A DNA stretch of 64,000 nucleotides from Acidobacteriota bacterium (GTDB taxonomy: Bacteria; Acidobacteriota; Terriglobia; Terriglobales; Acidobacteriaceae). The stretch spans positions 1-64,000 of the forward strand of contig JAJXZT010000011.1 in NCBI GenBank assembly GCA_021779935.1. Reading direction: 5' to 3'. Under the pieces are notes generated by a model. That model was given only the letters and a program-made list of their open reading frames with translations, was not told where the DNA came from and made no database searches. A program made the position numbers and the translations under genes. Every line of letters starts with the position of its first letter. Position 1 is the first letter of the stretch. This document shows, piece by piece, positions 4,685 through 11,064 of the stretch.

Positions 4685-7099
4685 TTATTGGACGCGTCTT
4701 ACCGGGAACTCAATAAGCGCCGCTTTCTGGTCGGTGTGCCTCTGCTTCTGGAGATACATCTGGTGGTCGGCCGCCGCGAGCAGTTGCTCCGCGTCCGTGC
4801 CATGTTCCGGGTAGAGCGCCGATCCAACGCTGACCGAGAGCAGGCGTTCTCCGCAGATCCTGTAGCCGGCTTCTTCCCCAAGTTCGTTGATGCGGATCGC
4901 TTTTTGTTTCGCCGCGGCAAGGTCCAGGCCAGGGATGACCAGCACGAATTCATCTCCGCCCATGCGCGCCACGTAGTCGTACTCGCGGCATGAGTCCCTC
5001 AATTCCTGCGCGAATACCCGCAGAACCTTGTTGCCTTCAAGATGACCGAAGCGATCGTTGATTTGCTTGAAGCCGTCGAGGTCGCACACCATCACGGAAA
5101 GTCGCGTGGATTCACGCTTGCAACGGGAGAGCTCCTGGTCAAGATGCAGGAAGAGCGAGCGAGCGTTGGGCAATCCGGTCAGGTAATCGGTCGTCGCCGA
5201 ACTCTCCGCCTTCTGATAGCGCATGGCGTTATCGATGCAAAGTGCAACCTTGGAACTAATCGCAAGCAGTACGCGCAGATGGTCGCGCGTGAATGCGTCC
5301 TGCGCCGTGCGATAAACCGTAAGCACTCCAACGATTCCGGCGAGTCCGGCAAGCGGGACTGAAAGCGCCGACTTCATTTCCACTGTGTTGTGGACATTTG
5401 TCGCGTAGCTCCACTCGACCGCGGGGCTGCCGTTCAGAATTGGTTTGCCGTGGGCAGCAACCCAACCGGAGATGCCGCGACCAATCGGAATTTCAAGCGA
5501 CGACAGCAGCCGGAAGTTTTCTCCGCTGACGTGTTGCGGCTTCAGGATATTGTTCTCGCGGACGTATATGGCGATCGACTGGTAAGGGATCAACTTGGCG
5601 AGACGCAGCGAGAGCAGGGAAAGTGTCTCGTGGACGCTCAGCGAATTTCCAAGTTCGTGGCTCAGTTCGAACAATGTCTGAGCCTCCTGGCGCGCGGCCG
5701 CGATGGAGGATAGGAATCCGGTATCGGCGGACGATTCTTCTTCCGCGTCATAACCCGCGGCCGGAGCGGCTTTCACGTTGGGGGTGACAGTCGCTTTAAT
5801 GAGAGGATTGCTGCCGCCGGAATCCAGGTCGTTCTCCGCTGCGAACAGAAGCTCGCCGGAATGCTTCTTCAATGTTTCGATCACAAGCGGATCAAAGTGC
5901 GTGCCCGAACCTTCGCAGACATACTGGAATGCTTCGGCCATGGGAAGCGCGCGCCGGTATTGACGGTCCGAGGCAAGCGCATCGAGACAGTCCACCACGG
6001 CAAGGATACGCGCGCCGATTGGAATTTCTTCTCCGCTCAATCCATAGGGATATCCGGAGCCGTCCCATCTCTCGTGATGCGCCTCGACAATTGGCACAAC
6101 TGGATATGGAAAATTGACTCGCTTAAGAATCTCCGCTCCGACCAGCGGGTGGATCTTCATCTTGTCGAACTCTTCGGGAGTGAGCCGGCCCGGCTTGTTG
6201 ATGATGTGCTCGGGTACGGCCAGCTTTCCGATGTCGTGCAGCAATGCGGCGGCACGCAGGGCTTCGAGTTCTTCCGGCTTGATGGCCAGGTCTTTCGCGA
6301 GTTTCAGCGCATACTTCCGAACACGGTACAGATGGTCGTGGGTGGTGTGATCTTTCGCTTCAATTGCCAGTGCAAGAGCCTCGATGGTCCGCAGGTGGAG
6401 AGAGGCCATGTCTTCAACGTGCGTCTTCTCCGCTTCAAGGCGTTCAATGTACAACCGGTACGACCGGTAGATGAAATAACCGATCGGGAAGATCAGCAAC
6501 GTTTCCTGCCATCCCGCTGTACGGCTCACCACGCCGAAGAAACCCGCAATGGCTGCTCCAACCAGGTAGTGCGGAAACGACCAGAAGTAGCACTCCGACC
6601 AGATCTTGCGGACAGGTTTGTTTTCCGTAATGCCGATAATCATGGCGACTGGAACCGTATTCGTGACGTAGAAAACGATTCCAACTGCTACGAGCGCAAG
6701 AGGAATGGCGATGCCATGCGAGAAGGAAATCAGACGGTGATAGACCAGGTACGACACCGTAACCGAGCTGGCTATCATCGAAAAATTAAAAGTAGTCTGC
6801 GCGAGCGTGGGGCTTTTCTGCTTCCAGATACTCTGCACCGTCGCCGCAGAAAGCGCCATAATCAGCGTTTCCGGCAGACTCAACTGCACAATGCCTATGA
6901 GCAGGAAAAGAAAGTTCACAGACATCGTGCCTTCGATCCCGGGGAGCCTTACCTTCATCCCGGAACCTACGAGAGCGATGCCCAGGTACAGGACAAATCT
7001 TAGCCAGTCCTGGCAGCCGGGATACTGGGTCGCCACCAGGATGGACCACAATCCGGTAACCGCCATTGTCCCAATCAATATTTTTGCTCGGAGTGGCAT
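4685..7099 (-). CDS. Membrane HD-GYP/GAF/GGDEF signalling protein
   Basis: An 804-residue c-di-GMP metabolism protein. Residues 1-215 form six to seven membrane helices, a sensor-like region. Residues about 235-410 form an HD-GYP phosphodiesterase domain with the metal dyad HDIGK (288-292) and an intact GYP (349-351). About 475-625 is a GAF domain. About 635-795 is a diguanylate cyclase domain with intact GGDEF (714-718) and an RxxD inhibitory site (REYD, 705-708). Both catalytic motifs look complete, so the protein could make and degrade c-di-GMP, with the GAF or membrane part setting the balance. It sits 24 bases upstream of the Opp-like transporter genes on the same strand. Confidence 0.93.
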   Translation of the reverse strand: MPLRAKILIGTMAVTGLWSILVATQYPGCQDWLRFVLYLGIALVGSGMKVRLPGIEGTMSVNFLFLLIGIVQLSLPETLIMALSAATVQSIWKQKSPTLAQTTFNFSMIASSVTVSYLVYHRLISFSHGIAIPLALVAVGIVFYVTNTVPVAMIIGITENKPVRKIWSECYFWSFPHYLVGAAIAGFFGVVSRTAGWQETLLIFPIGYFIYRSYRLYIERLEAEKTHVEDMASLHLRTIEALALAIEAKDHTTHDHLYRVRKYALKLAKDLAIKPEELEALRAAALLHDIGKLAVPEHIINKPGRLTPEEFDKMKIHPLVGAEILKRVNFPYPVVPIVEAHHERWDGSGYPYGLSGEEIPIGARILAVVDCLDALASDRQYRRALPMAEAFQYVCEGSGTHFDPLVIETLKKHSGELLFAAENDLDSGGSNPLIKATVTPNVKAAPAAGYDAEEESSADTGFLSSIAAARQEAQTLFELSHELGNSLSVHETLSLLSLRLAKLIPYQSIAIYVRENNILKPQHVSGENFRLLSSLEIPIGRGISGWVAAHGKPILNGSPAVEWSYATNVHNTVEMKSALSVPLAGLAGIVGVLTVYRTAQDAFTRDHLRVLLAISSKVALCIDNAMRYQKAESSATTDYLTGLPNARSLFLHLDQELSRCKRESTRLSVMVCDLDGFKQINDRFGHLEGNKVLRVFAQELRDSCREYDYVARMGGDEFVLVIPGLDLAAAKQKAIRINELGEEAGYRICGERLLSVSVGSALYPEHGTDAEQLLAAADHQMYLQKQRHTDQKAALIEFPVRRVQ

Positions 7100-7180: not shown

Positions 7181-9043
7181 CTAGTTGTCCCAGGAATTTC
7201 CAGTCAGCCCCGTTCCCCAAAGGATGATGTCCACTGCATTCGGGTCGTAACTGGTTCCCCAGAGAATGATGGAATCTGAGCTGTCAACGGACGAGAGGCT
7301 CGTGCCCCAGAGAATAATGTCCGCGTCGGAGCTCACCGAATTGGTGCCCCATAGGATGATGTTGCTGCCATCTCCGGCGGAAGTATCCAGGACCTGATTG
7401 CCCCAGACCGAAGACGCCTGCAACGTTGTGGATGTTCCCCACAGGATAATGTCGCCGGTGGATGCTCCCGAAAGATCCAGCGAGACGGTTCCGGTCGTCG
7501 GATCCATGTTCGCGGTTGGCGAGAGGGCAACTCCGACTGGTTTGTCGGTGTCCTGCAACGCCGCAGCGATATCGAGATAACCGGCGCCCACGGTGAACAT
7601 GTCGTAATTAATGAGGTAGCTGGTGCCGCTGGCGTCGTATACCACGCTGGTTGGCGGGTACTGTTTCCATGCGGTCTTCATCAACCGAGCTTTCACCTGG
7701 TCAGGAGTGAGCGTCGGGTCCTGCTGCAGCAGCAGCGCAACCGTTCCGCTGACTACCGGAGTCGCCATGCTCGTGCCGCTCAGGATCATGTACGGCGCTG
7801 TTCCGGCGCACCAGGCTGGGTTCGCCTGGCACGGTGAATTGTCGGGAAATACCTCCTGTGCGGGGTATTCCTCGCTAAGCGTGCTCATCGGGGCATTGAG
7901 GGAGATAATGCGGTTCCCGGGAGCAACGATGTCTGGTTTCACGATGTGGTCGATCTGCGATGGCCCCTTCGAACTGTAACTGGTCATCACGTCATCGAGC
8001 ATCGAGGGCGTATTTTCCATGTTCGTTGCGCCAACGGTGATCACGTATGGATCGTTTCCGGGAGCCGTAACGGTTCCATAACCATTCGTTCCCGCTGCAC
8101 GTCCATAGTTCCCCGCAGCGACGACCACGGTAATTCCGGCCCGATAGGCAGCTTCCACTGCCTGGTCAAGCGGGTCGTCCTTGTAGCTTTCGTAGACTCC
8201 CCGGGCGACCGATAGATTCATGACGCGAATGTTGTACTTGTCCTTCAGCTCAATCGCGCGGTCAATGGCCGCTATCACAGAGCTGTCGGTGCCTCCTCCA
8301 TTCGCATCCAGTACGCGCAGATTGATGATGTTCGCCTTTGGCGCTATCCCCGCGAAGTTTCCTTCGAAACCACCTGCGGCGGAGGTCGCGCCATTGCCGG
8401 CGATAATGCCGGCGACGTGGGTTCCATGGCCGTACAGGTCAGTGCCGTTGCCGCCGTCGCTTGCGAAATTCTCGCTATAGACGACACGGCTCTGCCCGGT
8501 GGCCGGGTCTTGCAGGTCTGGGTGGTTGGCGACTCCGCTATCCAGCACGGCTATGCCGATGCCACTTCCGTCATATCCCGACTGCCATGCGACCGTTGCA
8601 CCCACAGCTTCGGCTGGAGTCACTTGATCCAGACTTGCTTGAATCGGCCGGTCCAGCGAAACGTACTTCACGTGCTTCTGTTTCGCCAGGCGTTCGGCTA
8701 CCCTGATCGGCACTTCCATCACGCGCTCCTGCACGCGACGGAAGTTCTTCTTCGTGCTTGCGCCGTTCGAGTTCGCAAACTGGTCGAACGCCGGTGTCGA
8801 GTTTTCCGAGAGCTGAACGATCACCCTGACTCTTGTATTGAGAGAACAGGCCCGCGAAAGCTGCCTGTGTTCCCGTTTGGACAGATCAGAAGTATCGTTT
8901 AGTTTGCTGCAGTCCACGTCCTTTGCAATCCTCGGGCGAGGCTTGCCGTATGCAACATTAGCGCTCATCAACAGAACGAGCAGCGATACGAACGCCCATC
9001 CCTTGGAAAGCCCCAGAAGTGGCCCTGACTTCTGCTTGCTCAT
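7181..9043 (-). CDS. Secreted S8 subtilisin-like protease with C-terminal WG-motif repeats
   Basis: Exported serine protease, 620 residues from ATG 9043. That start is preferred over the TTG/GTG-type extension to 9133 because a GGGGCAAGC purine-rich stretch precedes it and a signal sequence follows (AFVSLLVLLMSANVAYG). The triad is complete: Asp168 (AVLDSGV), His206 (GHGTHVAG), Ser425 (SGTSMATP), with oxyanion Asn312. An I9-like prodomain (VIVQLSE...) comes first. The last 100 residues carry six WG motifs, mostly IILWGT(S/N/G), about every 15 residues. The ATG overlaps the stop of a 124-codon upstream frame as ATGA. A predicted sigma-54 promoter with paired upstream sites lies at 9441-9565. 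Substrate and role of the repeats are unknown. Confidence 0.92.
   Translation of the reverse strand: MSKQKSGPLLGLSKGWAFVSLLVLLMSANVAYGKPRPRIAKDVDCSKLNDTSDLSKREHRQLSRACSLNTRVRVIVQLSENSTPAFDQFANSNGASTKKNFRRVQERVMEVPIRVAERLAKQKHVKYVSLDRPIQASLDQVTPAEAVGATVAWQSGYDGSGIGIAVLDSGVANHPDLQDPATGQSRVVYSENFASDGGNGTDLYGHGTHVAGIIAGNGATSAAGGFEGNFAGIAPKANIINLRVLDANGGGTDSSVIAAIDRAIELKDKYNIRVMNLSVARGVYESYKDDPLDQAVEAAYRAGITVVVAAGNYGRAAGTNGYGTVTAPGNDPYVITVGATNMENTPSMLDDVMTSYSSKGPSQIDHIVKPDIVAPGNRIISLNAPMSTLSEEYPAQEVFPDNSPCQANPAWCAGTAPYMILSGTSMATPVVSGTVALLLQQDPTLTPDQVKARLMKTAWKQYPPTSVVYDASGTSYLINYDMFTVGAGYLDIAAALQDTDKPVGVALSPTANMDPTTGTVSLDLSGASTGDIILWGTSTTLQASSVWGNQVLDTSAGDGSNIILWGTNSVSSDADIILWGTSLSSVDSSDSIILWGTSYDPNAVDIILWGTGLTGNSWDN
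7205..7450 (-). repeat. Six in-frame WG-motif repeats in the subtilase C-terminus
   Basis: On the minus strand, copies of a CCCCA-bearing unit encoding ILWGT(S/N/G), with one diverged SSVWGNQ copy, occur near 7211, 7254, 7300, 7344, 7392 and 7434. The spacing is about 43-46 bases, or 15 residues. The units are degenerate at the DNA level but conserve Trp-Gly, which suggests selection on the protein rather than recent slippage. Confidence 0.75.
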
Positions 9044-9414
9044 TGCTTGCCCCTTTCTTGGTGGCAGATCGGTCCCAACGAATGGACTAGTCCGAAACGG
9101 ACGGTTGACTGCGGTTGATGTTGTGACTTCCACTTCCCCAAAGTGCTGTGGCCTGCAATCCGGGCAACTGCTGATAATGGGAACTGGCGCCCCAGAGGGC
9201 CGTTGCCCTTAGCTGTTCCCATTCCGCATCGAATGTTCGTGGTTCCACAAACCCGGTGCGGCAGTTGGTCCCAATGGATCGCATACAGGACGGATGCGAT
9301 GTCCATCTTTGAAAACGTGACTGTCCCATTTGAAGCACCATCCTTTTTGGTAGTTGAATCTGTAGCCCGGTATTCCCCAAATGGCACTGGCTTCGGAGCT
9401 ACTGAAAACCCCAT
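9040..9414 (-). pseudogene. Leader ORF / probable decayed WG-repeat coding remnant upstream of the subtilase
   Basis: A 124-codon frame starts at ATG 9414, just behind GGAGG and about 15 bases after the predicted sigma-54 start site. Its TGA overlaps the subtilase ATG as ATGA, as in translational coupling. Its own protein is not convincing, but the other two frames contain WG-repeat fragments like those of the subtilase tail: ASAIWGIPGY near 9375, and ATALWGAS and ATALWGSGSH at about 9125-9215 before a stop at 9087. This frame itself also has HRVCGTTN. The simplest reading is a frameshifted remnant of a WG-repeat gene or tail, now serving as a long leader. A real small coupled protein remains possible. 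Confidence 0.35.
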
Positions 9415-9440
9415 CACCTCCGAACCTGAACAGTTAATAA

Positions 9441-9454
9441 GCACGACTCATGCC
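9441..9454 (-). promoter_or_regulatory. Predicted sigma-54 promoter for the subtilase transcript
   Basis: On the minus strand the sequence GTGGCATGAGTCGTGCTT has GG at 9453-9454 and GC at 9441-9442 with exactly 10 bases between, matching the -24/-12 rule (TGGCAC-N5-TTGC). The predicted start is near 9429. The GGCATG core is shared with the promoter at 11403-11416. Confidence 0.6.
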
Positions 9455-9518
9455 ACTATTGGTGTATCTGCAAGTTACTGATATTTATTGACATTCACTA
9501 CACTCCAGTAACCTTGTT

Positions 9519-9675: not shown

Positions 9676-11064
9676 ATGGAGGCCACAATGGGCGTAGACC
9701 CATGTCTCGAGGAATTTGTCGGCTCAAATACTCGGCAGGGCCCAGACGATCCGCAAGTTGTGATCGCAAGTGATGGCATGCGCCGGTTAATGGCCCTGGT
9801 TGGACGCGTTGCTTCCCACAAAGCGGCCGTCCTCATCACTGGGGAGACCGGAAGCGGCAAGGAAGTCATTGCCAAGGCCATCCATCAGCGCTCCCTGCGC
9901 TGCAACAAACCGTGGGTCGATATCAATTGCGCCGCTTTCCCGGAAAATCTGATTGAAAGTGAACTCTTCGGGTACGACAAGGGCGCGTTCAGTGGCGCTG
10001 ACAGGGACAAGCCAGGTCTGTTTGAACTGGCCCACACCGGGACGCTCTTCCTCGACGAGGTAGGCGATCTCGAGCCGCGCGTACAGGTCAAACTACTGCG
10101 CGTGTTGGACGGCGCAACCTACTACCGCTTGGGCGGCAGTAAGAAGATTTCCACAGATGTCCGCGTGATCGCCGCAACCAATCGCCCCCTGGAAACGCTC
10201 ATTGAGACCGGGGGGTTCCGGCGCGACCTCTATCACCGCCTTGGGCAGTTCCAGTTGCGCGTGCCACCTCTGCGGGAGCGCCCCGAAGACATCGACGCCT
10301 TGGCGCGCTACTTCCTGGCCCAATTTGATCCGTCCAAGTCGCTTGCCTACGACGCCATCGCGCTGCTGCACGAGTATCCTTGGCCGGGCAACGTGCGTGA
10401 ATTGCAGAATGTCATAATCCAGGCCGCCGCATTCTGTACGAGCGATGTGATTCGTGCGGAAGAGATGGTCCGGTTTGTTCGAACAGGTGGCGACGACGCA
10501 AAAAGTCTGCCGGAAAGTTCGGCAGCACCCAGCTCAATCGCGGTGCCGGATCGCAATTTGACTACGATGGAAAAACAGGCAATCCTTGCGGCCCTGGCCA
10601 GGTCCGGCGGACACAAGGGTCAAACCGCGGAGCAACTGGGGATCTCGCGCAGAACCCTGACGCGGAAGCTGAAACAATATGAGATAGCGGATGGGCGCAA
10701 GGAACCCGCGCCCGTCATTGGCGCTCTCAGCCCGGAGCTGCAGTACACCTTCCGTTGCCCGCTTGAAGTGCCTATTCTGATCCGCAATTCTGATTCCGAC
10801 GAGTTTCGGGCGACGAGCCAGAATCTCAGTTCGGGAGGAATGGCAGTCAATGGCATCCCCGATCTGACGCACCTGCGCGGAATGCTGCAAATCGAATTCA
10901 CTCTTCCGGGAGGACGCGAGAAAATTCACGTGATCGGGCAGGTTGTCTGGGCAAATCCCTCGGGTACGGCTGGTTTACGCTTCACACATGCGCCCGAGTC
11001 CGCGCAATTCGAAATTGCCGGCTGGCTCAAGGCGAGACAACGCGAAGAAGGATGGGCTGTCTAG
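9676..11064 (+). CDS. Sigma-54 activator (AAA+) with Fis-type HTH and C-terminal PilZ domain
   Basis: Bacterial enhancer-binding protein of 462 residues that would remodel sigma-54 RNA polymerase. Walker A GETGSGKE is at 56-63, the sigma-54-contacting loop is GAFSGA (103-108; Ser for the usual Thr), Walker B is TLFLDEVGD (about 122-130), and WPGNVREL follows. A Fis-type helix-turn-helix (EQLGISRRTLTRKLKQY) sits at about 315-335. There is no receiver or PAS domain in front, only about 35 residues. The C-terminal 100 residues look like PilZ, with a NLSSGG motif after an upstream Arg (FRATSQNLSSGG), which fits RxxxR...(D/N)xSxxG loosely. ATG 9688 is the better start because GGAGG precedes it at proper spacing; the longer frame begins at 9676. 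Confidence 0.9.
   Translation: MEATMGVDPCLEEFVGSNTRQGPDDPQVVIASDGMRRLMALVGRVASHKAAVLITGETGSGKEVIAKAIHQRSLRCNKPWVDINCAAFPENLIESELFGYDKGAFSGADRDKPGLFELAHTGTLFLDEVGDLEPRVQVKLLRVLDGATYYRLGGSKKISTDVRVIAATNRPLETLIETGGFRRDLYHRLGQFQLRVPPLRERPEDIDALARYFLAQFDPSKSLAYDAIALLHEYPWPGNVRELQNVIIQAAAFCTSDVIRAEEMVRFVRTGGDDAKSLPESSAAPSSIAVPDRNLTTMEKQAILAALARSGGHKGQTAEQLGISRRTLTRKLKQYEIADGRKEPAPVIGALSPELQYTFRCPLEVPILIRNSDSDEFRATSQNLSSGGMAVNGIPDLTHLRGMLQIEFTLPGGREKIHVIGQVVWANPSGTAGLRFTHAPESAQFEIAGWLKARQREEGWAV

Follow-up and report, generated by a model that had tools for sequence, protein, structure and literature searches.

Introduction

The protease encoded at the locus analyzed here is an S8 subtilase (PF00082), with solved relatives such as Tk-SP (3afg) and the subtilisins. 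It differs from these known enzymes by WG repeats in a C-terminal tail and by a WG tag that lies upstream or at the N-terminus. Such WG-tail proteases are typical of Acidobacteriota. Other well-described elements share some properties of the tag. YSIRK-G/S is a motif of the signal-peptide n-region, and the fused form of the WG tag (..RHSAAWGKR-hydrophobic) similarly lies directly before the hydrophobic core. The WG tag is, however, a different motif; among the 29 rows of one search it preceded a hydrophobic segment in these proteases only, and it can also be a separate gene. SecM, TnaC, and trpL are bacterial leader peptides, and the separate form of the tag is like them in being a short, co-oriented open reading frame (ORF) directly upstream of the gene that it possibly serves. 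Unlike them, it alternates with a form fused in cis, it can lie downstream, and its hydrophobic type appears to be constrained as a protein. Finally, sigma-54 enhancer-binding proteins that carry a PilZ domain are represented at this locus by an activator of the same domain make-up, with no receiver domain among its Pfam matches.

In the titles and opening parts of abstracts of the literature matches listed, there is no mention of such a WG tag, nor of a linkage between enhancer-binding PilZ proteins and WG-tail subtilases. At this locus, the tag, which has no name in Pfam or NCBIfam, most likely belongs to a small partner gene of a secreted protease. Here, we describe the locus within the window (the whole 64,000-nucleotide stretch of DNA that was analyzed), and the evidence for this proposal from related loci.

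Organization of the locus

The features of the locus are listed in Table 1. The protease combines a Peptidase_S8 domain with C-terminal WG repeats, which makes it a WG-tail S8 subtilase; its tail contains six WG by count. An AlphaFold model built with 48 sequences has a mean pLDDT of 75.8 and a good catalytic part, and its top matches in Foldseek are subtilisin-type proteases. Residues 527-620 mostly fall below a pLDDT of 50, so that the model gives no structure for the WG tail. Searches of the tail with Pfam and NCBIfam profiles gave nothing above cut-off, and a scan of named genomes with the protease found two distant relatives only, at 28% and 27% identity. Across the tails of the family loci, successive WG are spaced by 6 residues in 272 pairs and by 12 in 128, a hexapeptide-type period that suggests a repeated structure.

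Table 1. Features in and around the protease leader, by position in the window.
Feature	Position	Strand	Remarks
HD-GYP/GGDEF-type gene	4685-7099	minus	type read by eye from the sequence; third member of the duplicated block
WG-tail S8 subtilase	7181-9043	minus	ATG at 9043; Pfam PF00082, E=7.4e-54
124-codon frame	9040-9414	minus	ATG at 9414; 134 aa from GTG 9444; TGA at 9042-9040 overlaps the protease ATG as ATGA
WG-tag small ORF	9087-9380	minus	97 codons from TTG 9380; intact, stop-free frame
Second ATALWG tag	9135-9152	minus	inside the small ORF, 54 nt from the first tag
First ATALWG tag	9189-9206	minus	inside the small ORF
ASAIWG motif	9374-9391	minus	out of frame with both ATALWG tags
Sigma-54 (-24/-12) promoter-like site, TGGCATGAGTCGTGCT	9440-9455	minus	score 13.5 of 15.5; consensus only
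Divergent sigma-54 enhancer-binding protein, C-terminal PilZ	9676-11064	plus	Pfam: Sigma54_activat, HTH_8, PilZ

A sigma-54-like site lies ahead of the leader, as an earlier note on this DNA had predicted, and the position of this -24/-12 sequence upstream of the leader ORF marks a candidate sigma-54 operon, by consensus only. Sites of this type scoring at least 12.5 of 15.5 occur in 46 of 115 family leaders on the forward strand and in 9 of 115 on the reverse strand. In all eight loci that have both such a site and a separate tag ORF, the site lies outside the outermost tag. Its median position is -334 at these eight loci and -101.5 at the 38 others (p=1.4e-4, with kinship ignored). In the paralogous leader described below (L002), no site scoring 12.5 or more was found within 520 nt; one that scores 13.5 lies farther up, and one that scores 12 lies nearer. 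Of 122 loci, 15 have a homologue of the activator next to the protease; they represent 14 distinct places, among them the window and its paralogue, and the count is limited by the short flanks that were fetched. The match extends into the PilZ part in 8 of the 15 and ends earlier in the others, several times at the end of the flank. The divergent protein is a likely regulator of the protease operon. The usual c-di-GMP site of PilZ domains combines the motifs RxxxR and NxSxxG; the PilZ domain of the activator (10700-11061 in the window), read by eye, seems to be without the first and keeps the second.

A small open reading frame in the protease leader

The leader contains the three WG-like motifs that the earlier note had pointed out, one ASAIWG and two ATALWG. 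They had been placed, as pieces, in three different frames, but both ATALWG motifs share one intact frame and only ASAIWG lies elsewhere; a further supposed piece, HRVCGTTN, contains no WG, and nothing was found in its support. ATG codons are present within the small ORF at 9341, 9329, and 9284, and ATG 9329, chosen by eye, is the likely start, giving a protein of 80 aa. The ORF ends 43 nt before the ATG of the protease. With its two TALWG sequences in a separate ORF adjoining the protease, the window carries the [ST]-A-[AVL]-W-G tag of a proposed family of WG-tag microproteins.

The ASAIWG motif lies 185 nt from the first ATALWG (185 mod 3 = 2), and its frame has no ATG, GTG, or TTG between the motif and the preceding stop. 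It is either a fossil of a third tag or a chance occurrence; dinucleotide shuffles lead to an expectation of ∼0.01 core motifs per leader. The 124-codon frame that overlaps the protease start is present as had been reported. WG is absent from its translation, and Pfam gave nothing for it at E<=5; it finds no independent support and is probably incidental.

Codon usage is uninformative here. The codon score of the tag ORF is -0.12 bits/codon, between that of genes (0.249 +/- 0.143) and that of wrong frames (-0.299 +/- 0.136), and the ATGA frame scores -0.09. None of the leader frames tested has gene-like codon usage, which therefore does not mark any of them as coding. No strong Shine-Dalgarno sequence was seen by eye at any start. 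Pfam and NCBIfam profiles gave no match above cut-off to the small ORFs tested; the few weak matches (E 0.07-0.15, for the tail and ORFs searched) are far below the curated cut-offs. The pattern GCNNTNTGGGG has 5 matches in the window where 2.06 are expected, and 6 of 100 shuffles reach 5, which is weak evidence on its own. Across the window's own genome, a related pattern has 54 matches compared with 31 for a backwards control. Among these 54, the only pairs closer than 1 kb are those in two protease leaders, and both pairs are spaced by 54 nt.

An intact paralogue in the same genome

The second of these leaders belongs to a duplicated block. Three genes (the HD-GYP/GGDEF-type gene, the WG-tail protease, and the divergent activator with PilZ) occur twice in the genome in the same arrangement, the second copy being L069 (G000:C37:160000-179000), and each copy has a leader ORF with WG tags. 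The two copies are 69% identical in the HD-GYP/GGDEF-type gene, 58 or 62% in the protease by two comparisons, and 57% in the activator. The paralogous leader (L002) holds an intact ORF of 75 aa, MNKEKK...YEWRASALWG...DASALWG...SGSLQV, with two SALWG tags. The tags have the same spacing of 18 residues (54 nt) as in the window, both ORFs continue for a tail of 15 residues, and the gap to the protease ATG is 44 nt.

Compared between the two leaders over 42 ungapped codons, the tag frame has a BLOSUM62 score of 73, against -32 +/- 13.1 for shuffles. The five other frames score 12 or less; four of them exceed their own shuffles (p <0.02), as would be expected of frames that overlap the tag frame. 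One is the ATGA frame, which scores -1 (p 0.0125) and overlaps the tag frame. In the paralogue, the ATGA frame is not clearly conserved. The tag frame is the only one strongly conserved in this one pair of paralogues, which argues that the tag ORF is conserved as a protein. A conserved programmed frameshift joining the small ORF to the protease was also considered and is disfavoured, since gaps of 43 and 44 nt place the two in different relative frames.

A third ORF with two tags was found at L009, with a sigma-54-like site in front of it. Outside the tags, the three soluble ORFs (window, L002, and L009) align poorly. Relatives of the window type in which two tags are fused to the protease occur at L005 and L041.

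The WG tag across the protease family

The survey drew on 120 protease loci, which are the better-scoring hits of two overlapping searches (150 and 398 family genomes) and not a random sample; L008/L010 and L047/L119 are near-identical. Five loci without a clear signal peptide were dropped, leaving 115, all with sufficient DNA upstream. The core pattern [STVA][AGS][AVLIMTF]WG, sought within 420 nt upstream of the hydrophobic core of the signal peptide, is present in 52 of the 115 leaders, or in 51 once L035 is set aside, its match being part of the tail of a tandem protease that lies upstream. The same pattern was found in 2 of 115 leaders on the reverse strand and in none of 113 at 480-900 nt upstream. 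In a smaller set of 88 leaders, from which 22 loci lacking the GHGT[HF]V motif were left out, 44 carry the tag, and dinucleotide shuffles of all 88 together yield 0.9 core motifs. The core pattern is absent from 63 of the 115 loci, some of which show near-misses such as HGAAWGGG and RHTAWGRR.

Tagged loci take one of two forms. In 33 of 115 the tag and the protease share a frame, and an ATG precedes the tag in 32 of these. Relative to the hydrophobic core, this fused tag is placed at -18 or -21 nt at 23 of the 33 loci (for example, ..RHSAAWGKRLS..). In 18 of 115 the tag is in a separate ORF that starts with ATG. Not one of the 51 tagged loci has the tag both in cis and in trans.

An unbiased count of xxxWG within 240 nt at 90 loci gave 92 on the forward strand and 25 on the reverse; SAAWG (25) and SAVWG (15) are the most frequent. 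At the middle position, A occurs in 52 of these 92, whereas in the tail repeats V occurs in 359 and A in 82 of 569. As leader and tail differ in this residue, the tag is more likely a distinct motif than a displaced repeat of the tail, and the reading of the leader motifs as remnants of the subtilase's own repeats, put forward in the earlier note, is not supported as the main one.

A search of 10 genomes with the SAAWG pattern gave 81 hits compared with 26 for the control; 30 of the 81 were turned into loci, of which 29 yielded a row. In 7 of the 29 rows the tag is followed by a strongly hydrophobic segment, and all seven are proteases. Two other genes (L199 and L220) have SAAWG immediately behind a hydrophobic segment, the layout of an ordinary signal-peptidase site, so this layout by itself lacks specificity. 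Of 25 loci from a phylum-level search, four had no readable protease and four belong to the same family, leaving 17 others. The core tag was found in one of the four same-family loci (L224) and in none of the 17. Within this phylum-level set, L247, a relative with a protease of another family, has 16 WG in its tail and a look-alike, FTWGR, just before the signal peptide; this is a possible tag outside the family.

Two types of separate tag ORFs

Classed by eye, the 18 separate ORFs comprise 15 of a hydrophobic type, an example of which is MSKSSKTVAIVLSLTLAIVAGFNLSSPQVKHALSAVASAVWGS, and the three soluble ORFs with two tags. The ORFs of the window and L002 are hydrophilic by eye and run 15 residues past the last WG, and so are not of the hydrophobic type, which ends as in ..ASAVWGS*. 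The two types share only the tag, and common descent is not evident from their sequences. Intact WG ORFs, which the earlier note had suggested looking for at related loci, are thus found at L002, at L009, and, as hydrophobic-type ORFs, in other genera. The earlier note had named two observations that would speak against its reading; an absence of WG coding at related loci is contradicted by these ORFs, and codon statistics that are not gene-like do apply to the frames tested.

For 12 ORFs, all of the hydrophobic type, dN/dS could be estimated in the 43 of 66 pairs that were unsaturated (pS <0.70). The median is 0.35 and the maximum 0.83, with values <0.5 in 35 of the 43 pairs; the same alignments read in shifted frames have medians of 0.87 and 1.60. 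These values point to protein-level constraint on the hydrophobic-type peptides. The Ser, Ala, and Gly codons of the tags occur in many synonymous forms, and a role of the tag as a DNA or RNA element is disfavoured by this variation.

A pattern for the microprotein end, GCNGTNTGGGGNWSNTRA, gave 45 matches in 150 genomes compared with 12 for the control. Loci were made for 30 of the 45. In five of these (L134, L135, L145, L146, and L147) the match lies in a hydrophobic-type peptide, each time with a protease next to it; the remainder look like chance matches. WG ORFs of the hydrophobic type were also seen between tandem proteases or, in pairs, between protease and activator (L012, L013, L052, L134, and L135).

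Competing interpretations of the leader

The main rival to a partner protein is a regulatory leader peptide, in which translation of the small ORF, and not its product, would control the protease by coupling or by stalling at the Trp-Gly codons. The ORF does sit in the protease leader, with a gap of only 43-44 nt in the two paralogues; at L009 the counterpart ORF shares the sequence TAATG with a possible start of the protease. Among the 18 separate ORFs, 14, all of the hydrophobic type, have the tag within two residues of the end. At the 33 fused loci, however, the same tag is read in frame with the protease, ahead of its signal peptide. In two genomes (G117 and G067) the stretch that follows the protease, up to the activator, contains two hydrophobic-type ORFs, which could not attenuate protease expression from this downstream position. 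The protein-level constraint on the hydrophobic-type peptides also argues against this role, which we regard as rather improbable.

We likewise consider a pseudogene in the leader unlikely; in that case one or more indels would have disrupted a longer WG ORF and detached ASAIWG, its first part. ASAIWG is out of frame and without an ordinary start, and codon scores are poor in all frames tested. Against such decay, the two ATALWG tags lie in an intact frame that matches an intact paralogue in spacing, tail, and gap, and the 18 separate ORFs contain one or two in-frame tags, never three. The earlier proposal of a frameshifted gene, or one split by sequencing error, is not supported for the two ATALWG motifs, given their intact ORF and its intact paralogue, and may hold for ASAIWG only.

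It is very unlikely that the tag peptides are processed and exported as pheromone-like signals, perhaps cut by the protease, with the tail repeats as further copies. The hydrophobic-type ORFs do resemble a signal sequence with a short ASAVWGS end behind it, and the regular 6- and 12-residue spacing of the tail WG would fit such copies. The ORFs of the window, L002, and L009, however, have no hydrophobic export signal, and a fused tag, standing ahead of the signal peptide, would not be carried out by it. That the motifs arose by chance in non-coding DNA is scarcely credible in view of the family-wide enrichment over both controls (51 of 115 leaders) and the conserved ORF of the paralogue, although the codon statistics and the mild enrichment within the window alone could be cited for it.

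A proposed role before export

The explanation that we prefer, with a probability of roughly 0.6, is that the leader encodes a real WG-tag microprotein of ∼80 aa, the trans form of a tag that is elsewhere present in cis, which would act on the protease before or during its export. Sequence comparison favours this proposal in several ways, through the ORF itself and where it lies, the intact copy in the paralogue, the occurrence of the tag throughout the family, and the alternation between cis and trans forms. The codon usage of the window ORF, the lack of a strong Shine-Dalgarno sequence, and the 63 untagged loci count against it.

In such a system, the divergent activator would switch the operon on, and the sigma-54 transcript would carry the small ORF (9087-9329, minus strand) ahead of the WG-tail subtilase. 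Translation of this ORF would yield the protein with its two A-T-A-L-W-G tags. By the usual logic, a part that some genomes fuse to its neighbor and others keep apart works together with that neighbor. The fused tag stands ahead of the signal peptide, a position that points to action either before export or in its course, and the tag may therefore act on the newly made protease at that stage. It would most likely engage the WG tail or the membrane-proximal segment of the protease, and this engagement would hold, target, or tether the enzyme until it is secreted. The resemblance between tag and tail suggests the tail as the site engaged. By the usual positive-inside rule, a fused tag would face the cytoplasm and that of the hydrophobic type the outside, and a single role must explain both.

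A more specific possibility, which we hold only tentatively and with the odds against it, is that the SA[AVL]WG tag and the S[VI][VI]WG repeats of the tail form one recognition system, in which a tag supplied in cis or in trans would read the tail ahead of export. If true, bacterial subtilases would possess an undescribed tag for export, tethering, or restraint, controlled by sigma-54 and PilZ. The occurrence of the tag at the N-terminus of some proteases and as a stand-alone neighboring gene in others hints strongly at a functional partnership. If the tag does work in trans, it would make the handling of a secreted protease ahead of export accessible to study in a tractable case, and would illustrate a class of small genes that readily escape notice.
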